The notes beneath the pieces were generated by a model that did not search any database, was not told the origin of the DNA, and saw only the letters and a list, made by a program, of their open reading frames with translations. A stretch of DNA of 64,000 bases from Methylobacterium durans (GTDB taxonomy: Bacteria; Pseudomonadota; Alphaproteobacteria; Rhizobiales; Beijerinckiaceae): contig NZ_CP029550.1 in the NCBI RefSeq assembly GCF_003173715.1, positions 2,666,001-2,730,000 on the forward strand, written 5' to 3'. The position numbers and the translations under genes are program-made. Shown in pieces: positions 5,266 through 30,987 of this stretch; position 1 is the stretch's first letter, and each line of letters starts with the position of its first letter.

Positions 5266-8200
5266 ATGCGGTTCGCTCGACCCAAATCTCTGCAGGAATT
5301 ACAAGACCCGTCTATCGGGAAATTTATGGAATATGCCATGCGGGTGAATTTTTTTCGAGCAAGAGCAAGATTAAAGAGAAGCAAATCAATCGTCAGGAAG
5401 AGTATATTATTCGACAGTGCTTATTACGCGCAGGTCTACGGCCTCAGCAGGCACATAGATGCAGCCGAGCATTTTTGCAAAATTGGCTGGAAAAAAGGAT
5501 TTAATCCATCTCGGTTTTTTGATGTAAATTTTTACTTAAGCGCCTACGAGGATGTTCGAAAGGTTGGAGCGAATCCTCTCGTACATTACCTCACGGAAGG
5601 CGCGCAGGAGTTCAGATGGCCTGTTAAGGATTTTGACGTCGCGGCATTTTGTGCGGCGCACGCTGAGTTGGATCCGCGCACTCAAAATCCAGCCGAGTTT
5701 TGCGTCGAGAAATATGGTGGCTACGATTGGACACAGGAGCAATATCGCTCCGTCGTCCTACCAGAGGATGTCGTTCACGCTTTCAAATCGAGATTTGATC
5801 CTGACTTTTACAGGTCTATGAATATCGACACCTGCGAAGCTGGTGAGGATCCCTACTATCATTTTATCAATCGCGGTCAATATGAGGACCGTGATCCAGC
5901 GCCGGAATTCGATATCGGATTTTACAGAAGCAAAATCAGGTCAACGGACGAGCTTCTTGGAAACCCGATCTTTCACTACGTTCGGCAAGGGCGGCCGCAA
6001 GGTGCAGCGACACAACCTGCGGATGCGATTAATCTCGATACGCGGACGATATCACCCGCGACACACGACCTGAAGATCTGCGTTCATGCACACTGCTATT
6101 ACCCGGAACTCCTGAGCGAGGTCCTGCCGGGCTTCGCGAACTTGCCGGCCACGGCCAAGGTGGTCATCACAACTTGCTCAGAACCCGACAAGGAGTTCAT
6201 ACAGAAACGCCTCTCCCGTGAGGCCTTTCCGCAAGCCGTCGAGGTTCGGCAAGTTCCTAATCGCGGCCGCGACCTCGGTCCCTTTCTCATCGGGTGCCGG
6301 GACATATGGCGCGACTTTGATATCGTGGTTCACGTTCACACGAAGGTGAGCCCTCACATCCGCTGGGGCAAGCACTGGCGCGAATACTTGCTCGATCAGA
6401 CGTTTGGCTCGGAAGGGCTTGTCAATGATGTATTGAGTCGGTTTCAGGCGGAGGCAGACTTGGGGTGCCTCTACCCGCGCAATTTCTGCAAAATCCGTCG
6501 TTTCACGCAGAAGGAAGGCAACACGTCGGTCATCGAAGCGATGATGCAGCGCCTGGGCTATGGAAGAGAGACGCTGCAGCAATCCGACTACCCTGCCGGA
6601 TCAATGGCATGGTATCGGACCAGCGCGCTGACCGCGCTCACCGAATCCATCGACAGTTACGATCAGTTCGAGGAGGAAGCGAGGCAGCTCGACTTCACGT
6701 TCGCGCATGCCTTGGAGCGGATCCTGCCGCTCGTGGTGCGCGCGTCGGGCTATCGGGTCTGCAGCTACACGACGTCTCGGCGATCTCGCCTGATTCCGCG
6801 TGCCGATTTTCCGGCGCGTGAGAACACCTATATGGATATTCCGGATCGCTGGATCGGCGATACTCCGAACATTGCGCGCCATCCGGTCCTACCGACTGCA
6901 CCGGCAAGTCGAGTCTACAATGAGCGCTGCCTGAACATTCACTGGATCATCCCCTCGTTCAACGCGAGGGGCGCCGGCGGCCACATGAGTATCTTCCGCA
7001 TGGTGGAGTTCCTGGAGCGTTTCGGCCACCATCAGACGCTGTGGCTGCAAAGCGCGATCGACTTTTCGGATCAAGCAGAAGCGCGGAGCCGCGCTCAGCA
7101 ATGGTACCGGCCTATCGGTCAGAACGTGCACGTCCGCTTCCTGCCCGAGGATATCCGGCAACTCTCTGGCGACGCGTTGATTGCGACCGAACGCTGGAGC
7201 GCGTTTCCGGCCTCGCTGGCGGTCAACTTCAAGGAGCGCTTCTACTTCGTGCAGGACTTCGAGCCGAGCTTCTATCCGGCCGGCGAGCTTCAGATCCTGA
7301 CAGAAGCGACGTACGATTTCGGATTTGCAGCTCTGTGCGCCGGGCCATGGCTCGGCCAGCTGATGCGGGAGCGCGGTCTCTGGACGCGTTGCTGGGACCT
7401 CTGCGCCGAACACGAGGTCTATTATCCAGGTATCCGGCCGCCCGTTGGCGAGCGGCCAATCCGCATTGCCTTCTATGCGCGGCCTTACACCCCTCGGCGC
7501 GCGGTAGGACTAGGCTTTGCAGCGTTTGAGATTTTGCATCGCCGAGGCGTGAATTTCCATGTCGAGTTGTTCGGGGAGGCCAATCTCGAAGCTGAATTCG
7601 ATTTTGCTCATACGCAGCACGGTGTCCTGACGCATGAAGAGCTCAGTGATCTGTACCGCAACAGCGATATCGGTGTTGTCTTTTCCTCGACAAACTATTC
7701 CCTGATCCCCCTTGAAATGATGGCTTGCGACCTGCCGGTCGTCGAGATCGACGTGCCGAGCACGCGCGCAGTCTTCAAGAACGATGAGGTCTACTTCGCG
7801 TCGCCGACGCCCTACGGGATTGCGGATGCGATCGAAGCTCTGCTGAACGATAAAGACCGGCAAGCTCAGCAGCGCGAACGGGGGCGCGCCTTCGTGGAGC
7901 GCACCTCGTGGGAGCGCAGTGCCAGGGCTGTCGAGTCCGCCATCCGCGAGCGCATCGCGGAACTCGGCTACACGGCCCTGTCGCCAGAGCCCTTTCCAGC
8001 GCCGGTCGTCGTCGACAAGCCCAAGGCGACGGTCCTCATCCCGACCTACAATGCCGGAGCGTCGTTCGCCCAAGTCCTCGATCAGGTGACGCGTCAGGCC
8101 TGCGATTTCGCCTACGACATCCTGATCATCGACAGTGAATCGACCGATGGCACCTACGACCTCGCGAAGGGCTACGCGGATCGGGGCGTCCGCATCGAGC

Positions 8201-9039
8201 GGATCCCGAAAGCCGAGTTTCAGCACGGGCGTACCCGAAATCTCGGAATCGAGCGCTCCGAGGGCGCGTATGTCGCCCTGATCACGCAGGATGCCTGCCC
8301 GCGCAATTCGCACTGGCTTCAACACCTCATCGGCGGCTTCAGCCGCGGACCACGGGTGGCGGGCGTCATCGGGCGCCACGAAGCGTATCCCGAGCACGAC
8401 GCCTTTACCCGCCGTGACATGACCGAGATGTTCGACGGATTAGCGCTCCTGCCGGACGTGATCGACCGTGACAACGGCTTGCCGAGCTACATCTATCCGG
8501 GAGGTCAGACATGGCAGATGCTGATGCACTTCTACTCGGACAACAATTCGGCGATGTCTCGAGAGGCGTGGAAAGTGCTGTCCTATCCTGAAATAGAATG
8601 GGGCGAAGACCAGGTTTGGGCGAACGAAATGTTGAAACTTGGATTCCAGAAGGCCTATGTCAATGAGGCGGTCGTCTATCACTCGCACAAGTTCGATCTG
8701 AAAACTCAGTACAAGACATCCATGACGGAAGGTAAGTTCTGGGCCGAGCAATTTGGCATCAATCTTCATCCGGATCCTGAGGCCGCGATCGCGGCGATGA
8801 ACGCTCGCGATCAAGCGTTTGCTATCTGCCACAGCATCGATGCGGATGCCTTGGAGCAGCGTCGCCTTTTCAATCGCGCCATCGTCGAAGGGCGAAGCGC
8901 AGGATATCGCGCGGCTCCCCTCTTTGAGATGCCGAGTGGAAGTGGAGTCACTAGGACGACGGCGATTATCTCCAATGGATGGTTGAGGTTAATGCTCGAT
9001 CGAGAGCATTTTTATAAATATACAGGATGGTTTACCTGA
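5266..9039 (+). CDS. Three-module glycosyltransferase (RgpF-like, GT4-like, GT2)
   Basis: This 1257-residue cytoplasmic enzyme probably builds a rhamnose-containing surface glycan. Residues about 60-265 hold repeats of an FDxxFY...NPxxHY motif often found at the N-terminus of large glycosyltransferases. Residues about 268-510 resemble rhamnan-synthesis protein F (VHAHCYYPEL, VPNRGRDLGPFL, VVHVHTK). Residues about 555-900 form a GT4/WsaF-like GT-B module (IHWIIPSFNARGAGGHMS, then EELSDLYRNSDIGVVFS and PLEMMACDLPVVE). Residues about 918-1200 form a GT2 module (TVLIPTYNAGASF, IIDSESTDGT, ITQDACP). The dTDP-rhamnose genes at the left edge fit this role. The N-terminal quarter is AT-rich and the rest GC-rich, suggesting mosaic origin. 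The start is the first ATG after an AAGG; 5326 is an alternative. Confidence 0.88.
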   Translation: MRFARPKSLQELQDPSIGKFMEYAMRVNFFRARARLKRSKSIVRKSILFDSAYYAQVYGLSRHIDAAEHFCKIGWKKGFNPSRFFDVNFYLSAYEDVRKVGANPLVHYLTEGAQEFRWPVKDFDVAAFCAAHAELDPRTQNPAEFCVEKYGGYDWTQEQYRSVVLPEDVVHAFKSRFDPDFYRSMNIDTCEAGEDPYYHFINRGQYEDRDPAPEFDIGFYRSKIRSTDELLGNPIFHYVRQGRPQGAATQPADAINLDTRTISPATHDLKICVHAHCYYPELLSEVLPGFANLPATAKVVITTCSEPDKEFIQKRLSREAFPQAVEVRQVPNRGRDLGPFLIGCRDIWRDFDIVVHVHTKVSPHIRWGKHWREYLLDQTFGSEGLVNDVLSRFQAEADLGCLYPRNFCKIRRFTQKEGNTSVIEAMMQRLGYGRETLQQSDYPAGSMAWYRTSALTALTESIDSYDQFEEEARQLDFTFAHALERILPLVVRASGYRVCSYTTSRRSRLIPRADFPARENTYMDIPDRWIGDTPNIARHPVLPTAPASRVYNERCLNIHWIIPSFNARGAGGHMSIFRMVEFLERFGHHQTLWLQSAIDFSDQAEARSRAQQWYRPIGQNVHVRFLPEDIRQLSGDALIATERWSAFPASLAVNFKERFYFVQDFEPSFYPAGELQILTEATYDFGFAALCAGPWLGQLMRERGLWTRCWDLCAEHEVYYPGIRPPVGERPIRIAFYARPYTPRRAVGLGFAAFEILHRRGVNFHVELFGEANLEAEFDFAHTQHGVLTHEELSDLYRNSDIGVVFSSTNYSLIPLEMMACDLPVVEIDVPSTRAVFKNDEVYFASPTPYGIADAIEALLNDKDRQAQQRERGRAFVERTSWERSARAVESAIRERIAELGYTALSPEPFPAPVVVDKPKATVLIPTYNAGASFAQVLDQVTRQACDFAYDILIIDSESTDGTYDLAKGYADRGVRIERIPKAEFQHGRTRNLGIERSEGAYVALITQDACPRNSHWLQHLIGGFSRGPRVAGVIGRHEAYPEHDAFTRRDMTEMFDGLALLPDVIDRDNGLPSYIYPGGQTWQMLMHFYSDNNSAMSREAWKVLSYPEIEWGEDQVWANEMLKLGFQKAYVNEAVVYHSHKFDLKTQYKTSMTEGKFWAEQFGINLHPDPEAAIAAMNARDQAFAICHSIDADALEQRRLFNRAIVEGRSAGYRAAPLFEMPSGSGVTRTTAIISNGWLRLMLDREHFYKYTGWFT

Positions 9040-9711: not shown

Positions 9712-9786
9712 GCCGGTGTAGCACAGCGGTAGTGCAGCGGTTTTGTAAACCGAAGGTCGGGAGTTCGATCCTCTCCACCGGCACCA
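9712..9786 (+). tRNA. tRNA-Thr (anticodon UGU)
   Basis: The acceptor strands GCCGGTG (9712-9718) and CACCGGC (9776-9782) pair fully, followed by A and an encoded CCA (9784-9786). The D arm is GCAC/GTGC. The anticodon loop TTTGTAA gives UGU. The T arm carries GTTCGATC. The anticodon stem has one outer G-A mismatch. The 3' end is the integration site of the 21-kb element: its last part is repeated at 30957-30987. The element therefore restores the intact tRNA at its left end. Confidence 0.95.
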
Positions 9787-9787
9787 C
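9757..9787 (+). other. attL of the integrative element
   Basis: These 31 bp cover the T arm, acceptor 3' strand and CCA of the tRNA-Thr gene. They recur at 30957-30987 with one C-to-T difference. The tyrosine integrase lies just inside. The repeat therefore marks the left junction. Confidence 0.85.
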
Positions 9788-11261: not shown

Positions 11262-12216
11262 ACCGCACTCTCACACAGCGGTCCCTCACATGGCCCTCAT
11301 GACTGCTCGCCCTTGGAAGGACCCAAGCACCGGGGTCTATCATCTCAGACAGCGCACTCCTCGTAAGCTATTGGCTCGCGTGAGGGGACAATCGGTGACT
11401 CTCCCGGTGGCGGATGGCTTCGCCTCTGTGAAGATCGGGGACATCGTTCAGGCTTCGCTGAAGACCAAGGAGGCCAGCGAGGCACGGAAGCGACATGCGG
11501 TTGCCGATGGTGCGCTGAAGCGGTTCTGGGAGGCACAGGAGGCCGGACCCACCAGCTTGACCACAAGGGAGGCGGTGGCTCTCGCCGGGACACTCTATAC
11601 GGCCTTCACATCGGTCCTTGCTGATGATCCTGGTCCTCCTGAGCGTTGGGAGAAGGCGCTTCGGTTGAATGCCAAAGCTCGTGCCGGGGAGTTGGGTCTC
11701 GGGCTGGCAATAGGGAAAGAGGCGAACCAACGGGCTTCGATGGAGGATCGGTTCGGCGGTTTTGCTGATGCTGTCCTGGCTCGTGAAGGGCTCGTGGTCG
11801 ATCAGAAAAGCCGTGACCTCCTGCTCAGCACCATTGCCTCAGCGATGGACGATGCGTCAGCGAAGCTCACTCGTAACGCCCGGTTCGACTACTCCCCCGA
11901 TGTAGCTGCGCTGAAGTACCCCGCGTGGGAGAGTCGGTCGGGTGCAGAACCCTCCGGTGACGCCAAGGCTGAGCGCATCACAGTGGTCGAGCTGTTCGGC
12001 CGGTGGGCTGCCTACAACGCCGACAAGAAGGCGGCAGGGACCATCAAGCGGTACAGGGGAAGCCTTCAATCTCTCGTTCAGTTCGCCAAGGATCGAGACG
12101 TTCGGTCACTGACCCCTGATGACCTCTATGCGTGGGCTGAGCACCGGAGGGACGCCGAAGGGGTTTCGCCTCAGTCCATCAACAAGAACGACTTTGTGGC
12201 AGCCAGTGCCGTCTTA

Positions 12217-13381
12217 TACCAACCCTCACTGATCAGAACTCATGAGCCCAGGCGCGCAGGCCGATGGACATGATGCGCCAGGGTTGGTCGATGAGCTTGT
12301 TCCAAGCGTCGCAGCAATGATCGAGGATGGCCTCGTATGACGCAAAGATCCGGTTGCCGAGCCAGTTCTCGCGGATGAACTGCCAGAGGTTCTCGACCGG
12401 GTTCAACTCGGGCGAGCGCGCCGGCAGCGGCAGCAGCGTGATGTTGGCTGGGACGATGAGCTTCTTGGTCATGTGCCAGCCGGCCTGATCGAGCAGCAGC
12501 ACAGCGTGCGCACCGGCGGTGACGGCCCTGGCGATCTCGGCCAGGTGCAGGTTCATCGCCTCGGTGGTGCAGCGGGGCATGACGAGCCCGGCTCCCGTGC
12601 CACGAGCCGGGCAGATCGCGCCGAAGATGTAGGCGGAGGCGGTGCGCTGGTCCTTTGAGGCTGCAGGCCGTGTGCCGCGGCGTGCCCAACGACGTGTGAT
12701 GGAGTTCTTCTGACCGACCCGGGCCTCGTCGGCGAACCAGACCTCTATCGGCTTGCCGCCGACAGCCTGCGCGACCTCCGCCAAGCGAGCGGGGAAGGCT
12801 TTTTAAAAGCCGGGATGGCGTCCTGATCCTGAGCATGATGGCGCGGACGAGCCGAGAGCTTGGCGTAGCCCAGGCCCCGCAGAACCCGGCTCAAGGTCTG
12901 CTCGGAGACTGAGACGCCGTGCTCCTCCACCAGGAACTGAGCGAGATCGACCAGCCGCCAGCGCACCAGCCCGTGCGCAGCCGGCGTGGGTCCCGCCTCA
13001 ACCAAGGCCCGCAGCGCCTCACGCTGCTCAGCGTTCAGGCGCGGGCGGGCGCCAGGGGCTTTGCCGCCGATCAGCCCATCCGGCCCGTCGGCGTTGAAGG
13101 CCAGAACCCAGTCCCGCACCGTCTGCAGGCCAACCCCACCGAGAGCCGCCGCCTCGGAGCGCGAGCCGCCAGCATAGATCGCTGACAGCGCCAGCAGGCG
13201 ACGGGTCTGATCCGGGTCGCGCGAGCTCTTGGCCAGAGCTCGCAAGGCCTCGGCATCGAAGTCTGGCCGCAGCGGCACAGGAGCGGCCATCCCATCCTCC
13301 TCAGGCTACAAACCCGAGAAATGAATCACGACCCGTTCTGCACCGCTACCCAGCGTGAGTCCTGCTCAACGAGGCTTGGTA
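12217..13381 (-). mobile_element. IS630-like element, copy 1 (inside the integrase)
   Basis: The 1165-bp element has ends TACCAA...TTGGTA with imperfect inverted repeats (ACCAASCCTCRYTGA). The flanking repeat is TTA (12214-12216 and 13382-13384). Counting the duplication as 3 bp restores the integrase frame exactly. The usual 2-bp TA interpretation would leave a stop codon. It has a two-frame transposase on the minus strand. Confidence 0.88.
12233..13290 (-). CDS. IS630-family transposase, two frames joined by -1 frameshifting
   Basis: The first frame (13290 to about 12790) carries the helix-turn-helix part: SRSEAAALGGVGLQTVRDWV and the SARPRHHAQDQDAIPAFKK end. The second frame (to 12233) carries the DDE_3 catalytic domain: WFADEARVGQKN, LLLDQAGWH and SPELNPVENLWQF. 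The frames join by a -1 shift in a TTTT-AAAAA run near 12801-12809, giving FKK-AFPARLAEV as in other IS630 proteins. This is likely programmed frameshifting and not decay, because the other copy in the window (20155-21215) is organised the same way. Confidence 0.87.
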
Positions 13382-14118
13382 TTAGGGTGGGCTGCAAGCC
13401 GTCAAGGCAAGCTGTTGCTCTCTGAGAACCCCGTGAAGGGCATACACCTTGATGAGCCAAGGAAGGTCGCCAAGCGGGAAAAGACGTTCAGGGGAGGCGA
13501 GATAGCTGCGATCCTCAATGCAGCCTCAGCGGTGAAGCCTGACGAAAGGAACCCTACTCTCACTGATGCTTGCCGCTGGTGTCCTTGGCTTGCTGCCTAT
13601 TCCGGAGCCCGCATCGCTGAGCTTACCCACCTTGAGGGTCGTGACATCCGGGTTGAAAGCGGAATTACCGTGATGGACCTACGGGTGACGAAGACCGGAG
13701 AGCCAAGGACGGTGCCGCTCCATGCCCACCTCATCGAACAGGGCTTCCTTGAGTTCGTGAAGGCATCAGGATCAGGGCCGCTGTTCTACGATTCTGCTAG
13801 GCACGGGAAGGGCTCCGCTGCCTCACCGGCTGAACTGAGAGCGAACAAGGTAGCCAAGTGGGTGCGAGACACGGTGAAGCTCGATCCTGACGTCGATCCC
13901 AATCACGGATGGCGGCACACTTGGAAGACCAGGGCGCTCGGGGTTGGGATCGAAGAACGGCTCAGGGATGCAGTGACAGGCCATCGGGTCGCATCCGTCG
14001 GGCGGAAGTACGAGACACCCTCACTGTCTATGCTGGCTGGCGCTATGAGGCGGTTCCCCAGGTATGAGATCTGAGGCTGATCTCTAGGAACGTCAGTAAA
14101 AATCAGCGAGGCTATGGA

Positions 14119-15084
14119 ATGTCAGTGTTCTACCAGCACATTGGTGAGGCTCTTTGGCGTCGTGACGCACCTAAAAGTATTGGAACACCAGAGGGCGGAT
14201 TACGGCGCTTTCGGCTGCCAGAGATTGAGAAGCACCTCCAGAACATTCCTCCTTCTGAACTGGCCGCCGCGCACTCTAAGATGACAGAGCTTGCACCGAC
14301 TGGCTTTCAGGTCTGGGGTTTACCTGAAGGAGCGCGGGATGCCATCAAGAACATGGAGGACGGAGATTTCCTGATGCTGTTGGAAAACACGGACTTCAAG
14401 TTCGTCGGACAGGTACTGCACCGCTTATCAGAGCCCTGTTGGGACCTATCAAGGCACATATGGGGAGAAGCCCGTTTCCCGCTCGTGGTATTCTTGCAAG
14501 GCGAACTGACCTCTTATCCTTGGACAAACTTCTGCGCAGACTTCTCATTCGCTGACGGGTATCATATGCGCGGCAATACGATGCGCCTCTCCAGTGAGCG
14601 TATCGGTTCTTCGCCATGGCAAACGGAAGAAGGCTTTATCTCGCACTTGCTGACAACCACAGGAGTAAACCCGGAGGATCAAGCAAGCGACTTCCAGGCC
14701 TTTGCAAACAATCTGCAGATACACCTTCGCATGGTGAAGGCGCGAGCGGCTCAGCAGAGATTCAGGCAAGGCACCATTTCCAAGCAAGGAATGGAGTGTG
14801 CGTTTTGCAGCATGAGCATTCCAGAGGTTCTGGAAGCCGCCCATATCGTCCCTAAAGAACATGATGGCGCAGACGACCATCGTAATGCTCTGGTATTATG
14901 CGCTCTGCACCACCGGATGTTTGACTCTGGCCTACTGAGGATCAATCCGAACACTCGTTCTGTGCTTGCAGGCGGATCCTATTCCCTGGATGAACTGCGG
15001 GTCACGAGGCATCAGATCGCAGCCGGCCCACAGTGGCCACACGAGCGATCACTGAGATGGCGTTGGGAGAGGGGTTTAGGGTAG
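14119..15084 (+). CDS. HNH endonuclease with an EVE/PUA-like N-terminal domain
   Basis: A 321-residue two-domain protein. Residues about 60-130 (GFQVWGLPEGARDAI, MEDGDFLMLLENTDFKFVGQV, then a Trp- and Phe-rich strand ending PLVVFLQGE) resemble EVE/PUA-like folds that read modified bases. Residues about 235-290 are an HNH nuclease: CAFCSMSIPEVLEAAHIVPK, then HRNALVLCALHHRMFDSGLL. This architecture is known for modification-dependent restriction enzymes, so a stand-alone type IV defence role is a reasonable inference; the EVE-like call is from pattern only. It lies 44 bp after the integrase in lower-GC sequence and looks like island cargo. Confidence 0.82.
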   Translation: MSVFYQHIGEALWRRDAPKSIGTPEGGLRRFRLPEIEKHLQNIPPSELAAAHSKMTELAPTGFQVWGLPEGARDAIKNMEDGDFLMLLENTDFKFVGQVLHRLSEPCWDLSRHIWGEARFPLVVFLQGELTSYPWTNFCADFSFADGYHMRGNTMRLSSERIGSSPWQTEEGFISHLLTTTGVNPEDQASDFQAFANNLQIHLRMVKARAAQQRFRQGTISKQGMECAFCSMSIPEVLEAAHIVPKEHDGADDHRNALVLCALHHRMFDSGLLRINPNTRSVLAGGSYSLDELRVTRHQIAAGPQWPHERSLRWRWERGLG

Positions 15085-15595: not shown

Positions 15596-15870
15596 GGGCT
15601 CATCCCCTGCGATCCTGGGCGACTGACAGGTGACAACGAGAGGGTGGAGGGAGCGGGTCTCGGATGCTGTGTCCATGGCAGGGCTCACTGAGGGGAGCCC
15701 ATTACGTTCAGCGCGGCCGATCCGTTCCCAAGCTGAGCCGATCAGTAGGGCAGGCCCTTGTGAGAGGGTGAAGAACCCTGCCGAGAACCTATCACACACG
15801 TTGACATCGGAATTCTGATAGCTTCAGATCGCATCTTTCTCGATCCTATTGATAACGTGGAGGATGGGTG

Positions 15871-16452
15871 ATGCTGATCGGGTACGCCAGGACGAGCACG
15901 GTCGAGCAGATCGCCGGCCTGGAGGCGCAGGAGCGAGACCTCAGGGCTGCCGGGGTGGAGCGGATCTACCAAGAGCAGACCAGCGCGACCGGACCACGGA
16001 AGGCACTGACCGAAGCCTTGGACTACCTGCGAGAGGGTGACGCCCTGGTGGTGACCAAGCTCGACCGGCTGGCTCGCTCCGTGGCCGACCTCGTGGGCAT
16101 CATCAAAACCATTCAGGCGAAGAAGGCATCCCTGAAGGTGCTGGCCCTGTCGCTCGACACCGGCACACCCACGGGCAAGCTGATGCTGAACCTCTTGGGA
16201 TCCGTGGCTGAGTTCGAGCGTGATCTGATGCTGGAGCGGCAGCGGGAGGGGATTGCCAAGGCCAAGGCCGAGAAGCGCTACAAGGGCCGCAAGCCCACGG
16301 CGATGGCCAAGGCTGACGAGGTGAGGCGCTTAGCTGGGCAGGGGCTGACCCGGGAGGCGATAGCCAAGCAGCTCGGGATTGGAGTGGCGAGTGTCTACCG
16401 GGCTCTCAGGAGCGAGACCGGTGCAACAGAAGGCCGGGCTCAGGCAAACTGA
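15871..16452 (+). CDS. Serine recombinase (resolvase/invertase family)
   Basis: A complete 193-residue small serine recombinase. It has the catalytic Ser in GYARTSTVEQ, the conserved Arg in VTKLDRLARSVADL, and the SVAEFERDLMLERQREGIAKAK helix that crosses the dimer. A C-terminal helix-turn-helix follows (GQGLTREAIAKQLGIGVASV). GGAGG at 15859-15863 supports the ATG at 15871 over the GTG three bases earlier. In mobile elements such enzymes resolve dimers or invert segments. No paired recombination site was identified. It stands alone between the terminators and the repeat-rich region. Confidence 0.93.
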   Translation: MLIGYARTSTVEQIAGLEAQERDLRAAGVERIYQEQTSATGPRKALTEALDYLREGDALVVTKLDRLARSVADLVGIIKTIQAKKASLKVLALSLDTGTPTGKLMLNLLGSVAEFERDLMLERQREGIAKAKAEKRYKGRKPTAMAKADEVRRLAGQGLTREAIAKQLGIGVASVYRALRSETGATEGRAQAN

Positions 16453-19407: not shown

Positions 19408-20138
19408 TGATGACAACCTTGATGACAACCTGTTGACCTCACCTGACGACCGAGAATGGCAACGGAAACACAAAGACCGCTTCTTTGAACCCTGGAGAGT
19501 CCCTGTCAGCCCGAAGATGAAGAAACTTCTAAACAAGATCGATTACGTCCTCCGCTCCCACGAGGTTCTGGCCAGGCCCAGAAAGCGTACTCGCAAGGGA
19601 GACGCACAGGCTAACTTCAACGAAGCCGTGTCTGCTCTTGTGTGCGACCTGACTCACTGCGTTCTCATCGGACACACTGAAGGCATCGTCTTAACCCGCT
19701 CTATCGCGCTGCTGTCGGTAAAGTCCCGGTACAAGCCATCCTTCATCGGTAAGACCCTGCCTGACATCCTTGATCTGATGGCTGACCCGAAGCTGAGCCT
19801 CATCAGACAGGAGATCGGCACCAGGGAACCCGGAGCTAAGAAGGGGAACCTCACCAAGATCTGGCCTGGGATTACTTTGGAACGGCTGGTTACCGAGCAT
19901 GACATCCAACTGGAGGACATCCGCTACAGACCACCAACAGAGTGCATCATCCTGAAGTCAACCAAGGAAGGCTACTGGGATCAGACACAAGCTATCAACT
20001 ACGATGATACACCAGAGACTCACTCGATGAGAACAGAGATGCAGCTCATCAATGATTGGCTAGGCAGGGCCAACATCGGGTTCAACCAAAGCCTCGCCCA
20101 GGTAGACAGCCCGGTAGACATCCATAACCGATGCCTGA

Positions 20139-21298
20139 TACCAATCGGTGGTGATCATAACTGATAGGCCCAGTCACGCAGGCCGATGGACATGATCTTC
20201 CAAGGCTGGTCGATGAACCGGTTCCAGACCTGACAGCACTGCTCGACAATGTCCTCGTAGGACGAGAAGACGCGGTCGCCGAGCCAGTTGTCGCGCAGGA
20301 ACTGCCAGACATTCTCGACCGGGTTGAGTTCCGGGGCGCAGGCTGGCAGCGGCAGCAGGGTGATGTTGGCGGGCACGACGAGGTCGTGGGCGACGTGCCA
20401 GCCCGCCCCATCGAGGATCAGCACGGCGTGGGCGCCTTCCTCGACGCTGCAGCTGATCTCCCTGAGGTGCTCGTTCATCGCCGCGGTATCGCATCTCGGC
20501 ATGATGAGGCCGGCACCCTTGCCCTTCTCGGGACAGATCGCTCCGAAGATGTAGGCGTGGGCCGTACGTTGGTCCTTGGGCGCCGAGGGCCGGCTGCCGC
20601 GGCGCGCCCAGCGGCGGGGCAGCGTGTTCTTCTGGCCGACCCGAGCCTCGTCTGACCACCACACCTCGATGGCCGCGCCAGCCGGCAGCCGGGCTCGGAT
20701 CGCCCTCACCTCGGCTGGCAAGTTTTTTTGAAGGCTGCCAGTGCGGCCGGGTCCTGCTCATGATGGCGCGGGCGTGCCGACAGCTTGCGGAAGCCGAGTT
20801 GTTTCACCGTGCGGCCCACCGTGCTCTCGTCCAGGCTCACGCCGAAGCTGGCGTAGATCCAGGCGGCGAGATCCTTCAGCCGCCAGCGCACCACGCCGTG
20901 TCGATCCGGGTCCGGCCCGCTCTCGACGATCTGCGCCAGCGCTTGACGCTGCGCATCGCTCAACTTGGCTGGGTTGCCCGGGGCCTTGCGGTTGATCAGC
21001 CCGGCCGGGCCGGCTGCGTTGAAGGCGAGCACCCAATCGCGCACCGTCTGCAACCCTACCACCCCGATCCGAGCCGCATCCGTGCGGCTGCCGCCCTCGT
21101 AGATCTCGGCCAGCGCCAGCAGCCGGCGGCTCTGGCCCGCGTCTCGGCTGGCCTTGGCCAGACGTCGAAGATCGTCGGCGTTGAAATCCTCACGCAGAGC
21201 AACCGCAGCGGACATGGCAAACCCTCCCGGTTCGCCTCATCGAACCAGATCCGCCGCCGATACGAAACCTCGTGAGTCGCTATCACCGTCGACCGGTA
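20139..21298 (-). mobile_element. IS630-like element, copy 2 (inside the polymerase-like gene)
   Basis: The 1160-bp element has ends TACC...GGTA, with 13 of 17 terminal bases matching between ends. The flanking repeat is TGA (20136-20138 and 21299-21301). As with copy 1, a 3-bp T-N-A duplication restores the host gene frame and a TA duplication does not. Its transposase is clearly related to but diverged from copy 1, so these are two different elements, not a recent duplication. Confidence 0.88.
20155..21215 (-). CDS. IS630-family transposase, two frames joined by -1 frameshifting
   Basis: The first frame starts at 21215 (MSAAVALREDFNADDL), carries the helix-turn-helix part and ends at AAFKKTCQPR. 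The second frame carries the DDE_3 domain: VWWSDEARVGQKNTLP, LILDGAGWHV and APELNPVENVWQF, ending at 20155. The switch is a -1 shift on an A7 run (T7 at 20723-20729 on the plus strand), giving FKK-NLPAEV. The catalytic Asp, Asp and Glu are all present, so the element may still be active. Confidence 0.87.
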
Positions 21299-22113
21299 TG
21301 AGACGGATCTTCACGAGACAGAGGTTCACCTCAGGTGGACGGCTCTTCGGAGGGTTCTGGCAGAGTCTCAAGAAGGAGCATCGATATGGACTCATCATCG
21401 AAGGAGAACCAGCAAGTGAGCTTGATTACGGTCAGATAGCTCCACGGTTACTCTATGGGTTAGTCGGAAAGACACCTCCAGATGGAGATCTTTACGCAAT
21501 ACCGGAGTTAGCCAATGAGCCAGACCGGAAGGAGTGCAGGAAGGGACTCAAGAAGCTCCTGAACGCGATCTTGTTCATGGAAAAGACCATCGAGAGTAAG
21601 CCCAAGGGTACAGCCAGACAGCTCCCTAGGCGGTACTCAGCACCCGAGCTGGTGCAGATGTTGAGAGACAAACACCCTGAGATATCTACATACTTCGAAA
21701 CAGGGATCGGCCATCACCTCCAGTATCTTGAGAGTCAGGTTCTGGTGGAGGTTCTGATCAAACTCAGGAGGAAGGGTGTCATAGCTCTACCTCTCCATGA
21801 TGCCATCCTTGTTCCTAGATCCAGAAGGCATGAAGCAGAGGAGGTTATGGCCAATGTGTTCAGGAGGCAGTCAGGTCTAAAATCAATCGTAGAGCATAAG
21901 CCTTGGTACATAGAGAATGAGACAGAGAGCAAGAAACCATATGGGATCATAGATACCTATACCAAGATAACACAACCAAGCTAACCATCCCTTATAAGAG
22001 CCCGTAAGGATCTCTCCGGTCCTTCTCTTGGGCACCTAACTATCTCCCACAACAAATAAATCCCGATCCTTCAACACAGGCGGCTTCACCCCCGCTTCCG
22101 TGAACGAACCCTC

Positions 22114-22491
22114 ATGTCTATCGAAATCACTATCATCCCATCCAGCCGACACCGGCATCGCTATGACGCCTACCTCGGTGAAACCCTCCTGACCACCTCT
22201 CGCATCCCGTTCTTCGACGGAGCCCGAGAACTGCTCTCAAGGGGCTACGATCCAAACACCAGCCTGACCATGAGGCACCAAGGGTCAGCCCATGACTCAC
22301 TCCGGTCCACCCTCGGCTCAGCGGCAAAACTGACTGTGGTCGAGAATGGCCGAGATGGGCCGACCCTGGGAAGCTACGAGCCTTACCCGTTGAAGGAGAG
22401 ACGCAGGGCCGAGAAGCTATCCAGCCGTAGGATCGAACCTGAGCACCAGGGCAGCCTCAGCAGCGGCGACGGAGCCGTCATTAGTGCCTGA
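22114..22491 (+). CDS. Hypothetical protein of mobile elements (125 aa)
   Basis: A small basic protein beginning MSIEITIIPSSRHRHRYDAY, with a middle segment TMRHQGSAHDSLRSTLGSAA like that in uncharacterised proteins from alphaproteobacterial islands. It follows the polymerase-like gene by 129 bp on the same strand. Its last codons overlap the first copy of the 85-bp repeat that flanks the HNH-HIT gene. The function is unknown. Confidence 0.65.
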   Translation: MSIEITIIPSSRHRHRYDAYLGETLLTTSRIPFFDGARELLSRGYDPNTSLTMRHQGSAHDSLRSTLGSAAKLTVVENGRDGPTLGSYEPYPLKERRRAEKLSSRRIEPEHQGSLSSGDGAVISA

Positions 22492-22525
22492 GTAGCCCTA
22501 AGGCAGAACCCCGGCTGTACGAGCG
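22441..22525 (+). repeat. Imperfect 85-bp direct repeat, left copy
   Basis: About three quarters of these 85 bases match 23654-23738 without gaps, including GCCTGAGTAGCCC and ACGAGCG. The two copies flank the HNH-HIT gene. The left copy includes the stop region of the preceding gene. Confidence 0.7.
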
Positions 22526-22626: not shown

Positions 22627-23616
22627 ATGACCTCGCCCTTCCACGAGCTGCGCCGCTTCATCACCGAGCAGATGAGGATGTCGCACATCTACCAACCCCT
22701 GATGCTGAAGGCGCTTCTTGAGGGAGGTGGTTGGGCATCAACACGGACGGTCGCCTCGGCCTTCCTTGAGCGAGACGAGAGCCAGATCGACTACTACTCC
22801 GAGATCGTGAAGCGGATGCCCGGACGGGTGCTGGCTGCCCACGGGCTGGTGGAGCGGGAGGGTAGTGGCTTTCGGCTGATCCCGGATGCTCTCGCGCTAT
22901 CCGAGGAGGAAAAGGCGCAACTCCTACGGCTCTGTGATGATGCAGTAGCAGCTTACGTCGAGAAGCGCGGCAAACGGCTCTACGCTCACCGGCAAGCCGC
23001 TCTCGGCTTCATCTCAGGCAATGACCGCTACGAGGTGCTGAAGGGGGCTGGGTACCGCTGTGAGCTTTGTGGCGTCCCCGCCGACGAACGCTTCTTGCAC
23101 GTCGATCACATCATTCCGAGGCGACATGGTGGGAGCGATGACCGAGCCAACCTCCAAGCCCTCTGCTACCAGTGCAACGGGAACAAGGGAGCCAAAGACG
23201 CAACCGACTTCAGGGCTGTCCGAGCCGAGAGTGACGCCCGAGAGGCCAGCTGCCCTTTCTGTGACACCACGGGACGAGAACTCGTAGCTGAGAACAGCCT
23301 CGCCGTTGCTTTCCGCGACCTCTACCCTGTCACTCCACTGCACACCTTGGTCATCCCGCGTCGGCATGCGGCGACCTTCTTCGATCTTTATGAGCCTGAG
23401 CGGCGAGCGATGAACCTGCTGCTGGATGAGGCGAGGTCACAAATACGAAGCGCAGATCCAGCCGTAACCGGGTTCAACATCGGCATGAACTGCGGCGACG
23501 ATGCCGGGCAGACGGTGCCTCACGCGCACATTCACTTGATCCCGAGGCGCCGTGGTGACGTTGAGCAGCCCAGAGGTGGCGTCCGCGGGGTCATACCCGG
23601 GAAAGCTAACTACTGA
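22627..23616 (+). CDS. Winged-helix / HNH nuclease / HIT-domain fusion
   Basis: A 329-residue protein with three parts. Residues 1-115 look like a winged helix of restriction-type proteins (YQPLMLKALLEGGGWAS, then KRMPGRVLAAHGLVEREG). Residues about 135-200 form an HNH nuclease: YRCELCGVPADERFLHVDHI, IPRRHGGSDDRANLQALCYQ, CNGNKG. Residues about 210-325 form a HIT domain: CPFCDTTGRELVAENSLAVA, PLHTLVIPRRH, and the triad HAHIHLIPR, with all catalytic His present. HIT enzymes cleave nucleotide phosphates or adenylylated ends. Joining one to a nuclease suggests a DNA end-processing or nucleotide-signal-linked defence role, which is an inference. Imperfect direct repeats flank the gene. Confidence 0.9.
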   Translation: MTSPFHELRRFITEQMRMSHIYQPLMLKALLEGGGWASTRTVASAFLERDESQIDYYSEIVKRMPGRVLAAHGLVEREGSGFRLIPDALALSEEEKAQLLRLCDDAVAAYVEKRGKRLYAHRQAALGFISGNDRYEVLKGAGYRCELCGVPADERFLHVDHIIPRRHGGSDDRANLQALCYQCNGNKGAKDATDFRAVRAESDAREASCPFCDTTGRELVAENSLAVAFRDLYPVTPLHTLVIPRRHAATFFDLYEPERRAMNLLLDEARSQIRSADPAVTGFNIGMNCGDDAGQTVPHAHIHLIPRRRGDVEQPRGGVRGVIPGKANY

Positions 23617-23653
23617 CGGCCAAGCACGGAGCAGCGCCAAGGAAGCGCCTGCT

Positions 23654-23738
23654 GATCACCAGGGCGGCGTCACTGGCGGCAACGGAGTGGTTTCGGATGC
23701 CTGAGTAGCCCCGAGGCAGAACTACGGCTGCACGAGCG
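23654..23738 (+). repeat. Imperfect 85-bp direct repeat, right copy
   Basis: Matches 22441-22525 without gaps at about three quarters of positions. The period between copies is 1213 bp and encloses the HNH-HIT gene. Confidence 0.7.
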
Positions 23739-30956: not shown

Positions 30957-30987
30957 TCGGGAGTTCGATCCTCTCCACTGGCACCAC
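30957..30987 (+). other. attR of the integrative element
   Basis: This 31-bp copy of the tRNA-Thr 3' end (T arm through CCA plus one base) is identical to 9757-9787 except one C-to-T change at 30979. No tRNA 5' half precedes it, so it is not a functional tRNA. It marks the displaced host end of the integration site. Confidence 0.85.

Follow-up and report, generated by a model that had tools for sequence, protein, structure and literature searches.

An HNH nuclease fused to a HIT nucleotide hydrolase, carried on a tRNA-Thr island, as a candidate defence enzyme

A single open reading frame at positions 22627-23616 of the window (the whole 64,000-nucleotide stretch of Methylobacterium durans DNA analysed here; all window features given below lie on the forward strand) encodes a 329-amino acid protein that joins an HNH nuclease domain to a HIT hydrolase domain, with both active sites complete, and that is carried as cargo by a 21.2-kb island at a tRNA-Thr gene. 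Relatives of this protein occur in very different microbes, a good part of them near antivirus genes, which suggests that it is an uncharacterised defence enzyme. The reading favoured here, to which about an even chance may be given, is that HNH-HIT is a one-gene nuclease directed against mobile elements, in which the HIT domain would control cutting through an adenylylated nucleotide. If this is true, then the cutting of nucleic acids is directly tied, in a compact one-gene enzyme, to the chemistry of dinucleotides or of DNA adenylylation.

Pfam places both catalytic domains above the respective family cut-offs: the HNH domain (PF01844) with an E-value of 2.5e-14 and a score of 53.6 bits against a cut-off of 21.4, and the HIT domain (PF01230) with an E-value of 6e-20 and a score of 72.1 bits against a cut-off of 21.5. 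The HNH core, as delimited by the Pfam match and by conservation, spans residues 145-189 (23059-23193) and contains C145-x2-C148, D160-H161-I162, N175 and C180-x2-C183-N184. The HIT domain spans residues 218-309 (23278-23553), with the cysteine pair C209-x2-C212 (23251-23262) at its start and the histidine triad H299-A-H301-I-H303 (HAHIH, 23521-23535), whose second triad histidine, H301, would presumably be the nucleophile, as is known for HIT enzymes. An alignment of 57 family members shows no variation at the triad, at the CxxC pair or at certain further positions of HIT, and conservation of at least 90% at the HNH residues, H161 and N175 included. The claim of the earlier note that a complete HNH site and a complete HIT triad occur in one protein is thus confirmed. 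The likeness of the CxxC pair and of the conserved histidines to zinc-bound HIT structures indicates that C209-x2-C212 is probably part of a zinc site.

The N-terminal domain (residues 1-110, 22627-22956), which carries a conserved MRMSHIYQP motif, had been described as a winged helix, and this description holds only at the level of the AlphaFold model, which predicts a winged-helix-like topology for the domain (pLDDT 87.9); the domain has no Pfam match, and a fold search made with it returned nothing significant. A search among proteins whose length would not accommodate the fusion gave the domain in 52 of them, 83-213 amino acids long, of which eight have an HNH match and many are apparently gene fragments; the domain is hardly found outside the HNH-HIT family. 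A scan for promoters and terminators found none.

The fusion is not unique to the window, but belongs to a family whose members bear automatic source names: 'Ap4A HIT family hydrolase', to which some records add '5-methylcytosine-specific restriction end...'. A protein search confined to 0.55-1.75 times the length of the query matched 3748 sequences at E ≤ 0.001, and among the best 120 of these 3748, with the window protein first, all 120 have both Pfam domains. A genome scan using one genome per species gave at least 595 matching stretches, and at least 36 of the 80 loci kept (L004-L039) match both the N-terminal/HNH part and the HIT part, 30 of them (L004-L033) nearly from end to end. Two of the remainder (L035 and L036) are interrupted by contig ends, and in three (L034, L038 and L039) the matched stretch is broken by stops or frame changes. 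A locus in a Nitrosarchaeum metagenome-assembled genome (L037, 23-844) keeps the N-terminal and HIT parts and is missing most of the HNH core. The record titles of the fusion loci name alpha-, beta-, gamma- and deltaproteobacteria, cyanobacteria, Vampirovibrio, Bacteroidetes, Bacillota, Marinimicrobia, Eremiobacterota and Thaumarchaeota, although single assignments may be wrong because many of the loci are metagenome-assembled genomes. Full or nearly full copies are also present on eight viral contigs (L084-L091), that of L090 matching from residue 39 on.

The ratio of nonsynonymous to synonymous change (dN/dS) was computed for the entire gene in four close pairs that do not overlap, and is 0.18 (L086/L087), 0.15 (L024/L025), 0.06 (L016/L022) and, with synonymous sites near saturation, 0.18 (L010/L019). 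The HNH and HIT domains taken singly give values of at most 0.16, and the N-terminal part is looser in L086/L087, at about 0.5 from few changes. Both the HNH and the HIT domain are under purifying selection, and the fusion is not a product of chance, because the architecture is shared by the best 120 homologues, the site residues are conserved and selection acts on both domains.

The listed matches to the HIT domain, by sequence and by structure alike, comprise Hint, Fhit and Ap4A phosphorylase, along with other HIT proteins. The domain therefore resembles Hint, Fhit and Ap4A enzymes, and the comparison with aprataxin that was drawn in the earlier note is not supported. Aprataxin is missing from the best 60 of 63 sequence matches and from two 50-row structure lists, an absence that does not amount to exclusion. 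In aprataxin a C-terminal zinc finger follows the HIT domain; the HNH-HIT chain ends at residue 329, without such a finger, and because it stops 26 residues past the triad it leaves no room for one. The standing of an aprataxin-type repair enzyme as a candidate identity was lowered on this ground.

An aprataxin-like action may be envisaged without membership of the aprataxin family: the HNH domain would cut foreign DNA, and the HIT domain would strip AMP from the 5'-adenylylated ends that DNA ligase forms in attempting to reseal the cut, so that the break stays open. Aprataxin is described in the accessible text of its source as an RNA-DNA deadenylase that corrects abortive ligation (PMC6043908). 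The nuclease and HIT sites of HNH-HIT lie in one chain and are conserved together, and HIT is joined as well to a second nuclease type, GIY-YIG, which would suit a step on cut ends, but the listed structure matches and the short C-terminus both speak against such a role, and we regard it as unlikely.

The joining of HIT with GIY-YIG was found at a locus of the genome scan (L064, 9761-10402, +), where HIT is fused in frame to a GIY-YIG-like domain. A search with this protein gave at least five proteins that have both PF01541 and PF01230 (P0173-P0177) among the best 120 of 3981 matches; most of the remaining 115 are either stand-alone HIT or HNH-HIT proteins. GIY-YIG-HIT, with a length of about 213-216 amino acids, represents a second case, separate from HNH-HIT, of a nuclease joined to HIT, and no description of GIY-YIG with HIT was found in the accessible portion of the literature. 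In a tree of HIT domains a single clade for the HNH fusions is rejected (AU test, p 0.0098), and a single origin of the fusion was set aside on this result; HIT and nuclease have therefore probably come together, been exchanged or come apart on more than one occasion, to the extent that a short tree of 127 kept columns, made by a quick method and with few supported forks, can be relied upon. The tree excludes L034, L038, L039, L087, eight further Pelagibacteraceae copies and rows in which the HIT part is too short, as well as stand-alone loci that are partial or at contig edges, including L050-L052, L066, L069, L070, L073 and L076.

The neighbourhoods of the family were evaluated by taking, at each of the 36 fusion loci, up to two open reading frames of at least 130 amino acids per side, which gives 121 proteins. 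These match 195 PADLOC models at E ≤ 1e-10, the commonest model occurring in five members, as against 45 models, the commonest in two members, for 103 neighbours of 31 stand-alone HIT loci, and 37 models for 114 proteins from 18 arbitrary stretches of same-class genomes. The tallies give a direction and no exact ratio, because it is models and not genes that are counted (one helicase or methylase can match dozens) and because neither phylum nor place was matched in the controls. In the second control each of the 25 models listed (of 37) occurs in one member, and 23 of these 25 are GajB models, probably matched by one UvrD-type helicase. The stand-alone HIT control leaves out ten of eleven Pelagibacteraceae loci, which share a layout, and one open reading frame of more than 2100 amino acids, and it is not neutral, as it contains the GIY-YIG-HIT locus L064 and a DUF3427 locus, L072; the partial matches L040-L042 are in neither the fusion set nor the control set.

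Twenty neighbours picked as promising, 19 of them from genome loci, were also scanned against PADLOC one by one, and seven had no match (two of L008, two of L028 and one each of L014, L027 and L009). Neighbours match PADLOC models at E ≤ 1e-10 at no fewer than 12 of the 36 genome loci (L004, L005, L008, L020, L021, L027, L030, L031, L033, L035, L036 and L038). They include a full-length HmaA, at 1625 bits, as the second gene downstream in L005, and a C5-methylase together with an HpaII restriction enzyme in L030. A viral contig (L091) has a full-length PD-Lambda-4_A, at 880 bits, as the second open reading frame upstream, and in the genome G273 the adjoining gene encodes a T5orf172-type nuclease. 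Ordinary genes identified by Pfam, such as those for a peptide transporter, an adenylate kinase and an rRNA methylase, are also found among the 121 neighbours; many fusion loci adjoin metabolic or uncharacterised genes, and no partner gene is constant. The earlier note had held that a defence role would be called into question if homologues were found mainly in housekeeping contexts. Such a predominance is not clearly seen, given that defence genes lie near at least a third of the genome loci (for neighbours picked as promising), even though many neighbours are ordinary or uncharacterised.

The recurrence of type IV genes among the neighbours would suit HNH-HIT being itself a modification-dependent (type IV) restriction enzyme, in which the N-terminal domain would read a modified base, the HNH domain would cut and the HIT domain would handle modified nucleotides. 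An McrBC pair is found in L008, where a MrcB_N/AAA (McrB-like) gene is followed by an McrC gene, identified by Pfam and not by PADLOC, whose end is 12 bp upstream of where the HNH-HIT match begins. DUF3427 type IV enzymes are adjacent in L021 and L036, an mREase_IV-like nuclease is a neighbour in L035, and a protein with SRA and HNH, detected weakly and below threshold, lies nearby in L084. In the cyanobacterial loci L024, L031 and L038 a 312-amino acid gene of one family lies 52 bp downstream, and its L031 copy is assigned to HNH_2 by Pfam (an EVE-like identity, also considered for this neighbour, was rejected, as Pfam gave HNH_2 only). In L072 (6397-13139) a stand-alone HIT gene lies between two DUF3427-related helicase genes, along with NUDIX-like and MazG-like genes, both named by eye. 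Type IV genes are, however, common in islands anyway, Pfam recognises no modified-base reader in the HNH-HIT protein, and none is suggested by the fold search with the N-terminal domain, which gave no significant match, so that this reading too is judged improbable.

That the gene lies on a mobile element, as the earlier note had proposed, is borne out by a 31-nt direct repeat that bounds the island. The left copy, attL (9757-9787), is the 3' end of the tRNA-Thr gene (9712-9786), which is the sole Rfam match over 9000-32000, and the right copy, attR (30957-30987), is identical to it at 30 of 31 positions. Both flanks are adjacent without the island in all four relatives examined (G014, G011, G027 and G020), which were chosen because their flanks are close together; in other relatives the flanks are further apart. 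Across the island the GC content is about 57-68%, as against about 66-75% downstream of it, but GC is by itself no marker of the island edge, because the left flank also has 54-67%. The integrase that adjoins the tRNA gene is split into an N-terminal part (DUF6538 and SAM-like, 11290-12273) and a C-terminal part (13355-14074) by a transposase-bearing insert (open reading frames within 12240-13290), and the island is therefore probably unable to move by itself now. This insert and a second one of its kind are taken to be of IS630 type, a name given by eye from their HTH_32 and HTH_33 domains.

Besides this second insert of the same kind (20155-21215), the island carries IS66 and IS3 elements and a serine resolvase/invertase (15868-16452). 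The open reading frames on the two sides of the second insert (19433-20164 and 21154-21984) are possibly one interrupted gene, and the latter matches phrog_4756 (3.7e-29), which has no assigned function. Among the window open reading frames scanned, the only other defence-like gene of the island is a second nuclease, of the HNH_2 family (14119-15084), 7.5 kb away from HNH-HIT; its C-terminal part resembles the model of a phosphorothioate-DNA restriction enzyme below the cut-off (51.7 against 180 bits). Just outside the island, a 1257-amino acid protein (5266-9039) has at least two glycosyltransferase parts. The idea that the tRNA-Thr site is a defence hotspot was rejected, since the longer inserts at this site in G007, G030, G017 and G025 appear by eye, from the starts of their open reading frames, unlike defence islands.

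In one further relative (G021, L246, reverse strand) the same attachment repeat and flank are present with segments homologous to both sides of the HNH-HIT gene, and at that place the alignment to the fusion gene is confined to its first 19 codons (15 of 19 identical, in the first 400 bases of reversed L246). The gene was therefore probably once present in this sister island and was lost there. The remnant is followed in G021 by an L,D-transpeptidase-like gene, named by eye. In the window the fusion gene is enclosed by an 87-nt direct repeat, whose left copy (22439-22525) is 77% identical to the right (23652-23738); the region of the left copy matches only its own genome and G021 among 41 genomes searched.

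These repeats, together with a patchy distribution and with open reading frames that cluster with the window resolvase at 11 loci, the window included, would fit a selfish or homing nuclease, in which the HNH domain would drive the spread of the gene or island that carries it and HIT would be a passenger; homing enzymes often contain HNH domains. At E ≤ 1e-30 the fusion is found in one of 61 relatives, its own genome, with no match in any of 36 other genus genomes or 24 order genomes, and at E ≤ 1e-60 four of 385 class genomes match, its own included, one of them over residues 186-327 only; E. coli gave no DNA-level match. A homing role is nevertheless quite improbable. No copy covering 80% of the protein was found in 50,697 phage records, of which 131 matched, or in 72,556 plasmid records, of which 83 matched; the neighbours are variable, with defence genes among them; and homing gives no reason for keeping the HIT site intact. 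The lack of such copies was also the ground for rejecting a phage or plasmid gene in the strict sense, the eight viral-contig copies notwithstanding. Least probable of all is that the protein is a nucleotide hydrolase of housekeeping function with an accessory module for nucleic-acid binding, for although stand-alone relatives of the HIT domain are widespread in the genome scan, 11 Pelagibacteraceae stand-alone HIT loci have one neighbour layout in common (by eye) and the archaeal L037 is without most of the HNH core, the lack of matches in the other genus and order genomes, the history as mobile cargo and the purifying selection on HNH all argue against it.

The anti-mobile-element reading is thus preferred. 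HNH-HIT would spread on islands and prophages, and would most likely protect the cell or the resident element from other DNA elements. We infer this defence role from the conserved intact sites, the mobile cargo and the recurrent defence neighbours, and the cutting of DNA from the HNH domain, which with the N-terminal domain would bind and cut foreign DNA. Less certainly, the HIT domain, as a putative Ap4A/AMP-type hydrolase, may couple cutting to an adenylylated small molecule. In the simplest form of coupling the nuclease would be held in check or released by a nucleotide sitting in the HIT site, and HIT would also destroy that nucleotide. This gating step is speculative and is suggested by family resemblance alone; nucleotide-dependent control is favoured because the HIT domain is closest to hydrolases of free nucleotides. 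A broader and rather doubtful proposal is that HNH-HIT and, separately, GIY-YIG-HIT represent a class of effectors against mobile elements that has not been described before; in these nuclease-HIT fusions HIT would act on an Ap4A-type signal or on 5'-adenylylated DNA ends, so that cutting would be timed by, or protected from, the adenylation chemistry of the host and the breaks could not be resealed.

The significance of HNH-HIT lies in its occurrence across bacteria and in archaeal records, in its two intact active sites of different chemistry and in its defence-rich context. What biological role Ap4A-type nucleotides play in bacteria has long been an open question, and a HIT domain fused to two unrelated nucleases provides a concrete protein with which that role can be tested.

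Comparison with known systems places each part of the protein beside well-studied relatives. PADLOC (version 2.0, 2023) has no model that matches over the whole length: 14 families match at E ≤ 0.01, each to one part, with a best score of 36.3 bits. The HNH part has sequence matches in the PDB to the HNH domains of McrA, Cas9-type enzymes and IscB, and shares with these endonucleases (PF01844) the intact core, the two CxxC pairs and the DHI motif; it differs from them in lacking RNA-guide or Cas modules and in being joined to HIT. An IscB-like RNA-guided enzyme was rejected, the guided_IscB model (NCBIfam) scoring 51 bits against a cut-off of 175, over residues 134-204 only. The HIT superfamily hydrolases (Hint, Fhit, Ap4A phosphorylase; PF01230) are matched by a domain that here, instead, forms the C-terminal portion of a nuclease carried by mobile DNA. 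ThsC of type II Thoeris is, in the accessible text of its source, a protein of the HIT family that is linked to a defence system (PMC8565338); its PADLOC model matches HNH-HIT at 1e-9 over residues 238-304 only, with no other Thoeris match among ten selected window open reading frames, and ThsC is a separate gene beside the Thoeris genes, whereas the HIT domain of the window is fused to a nuclease. GajA of Gabija, which the available portion of its source describes as a nucleotide-sensing nuclease (PMC8136825), is the working model proposed for HNH-HIT, although it is a different protein, and no Gabija model is among the 14 PADLOC matches. The GIY-YIG-HIT fusions resemble HNH-HIT in having the same kind of HIT domain C-terminal to a nuclease, and differ in the nuclease domain, in their shorter chain and in being without the N-terminal domain of the HNH-HIT family. 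No description of an HNH-HIT fusion was found in the literature, as represented mainly by openly readable papers. The domains are singly familiar; what is new is their combination, its spread and its context.
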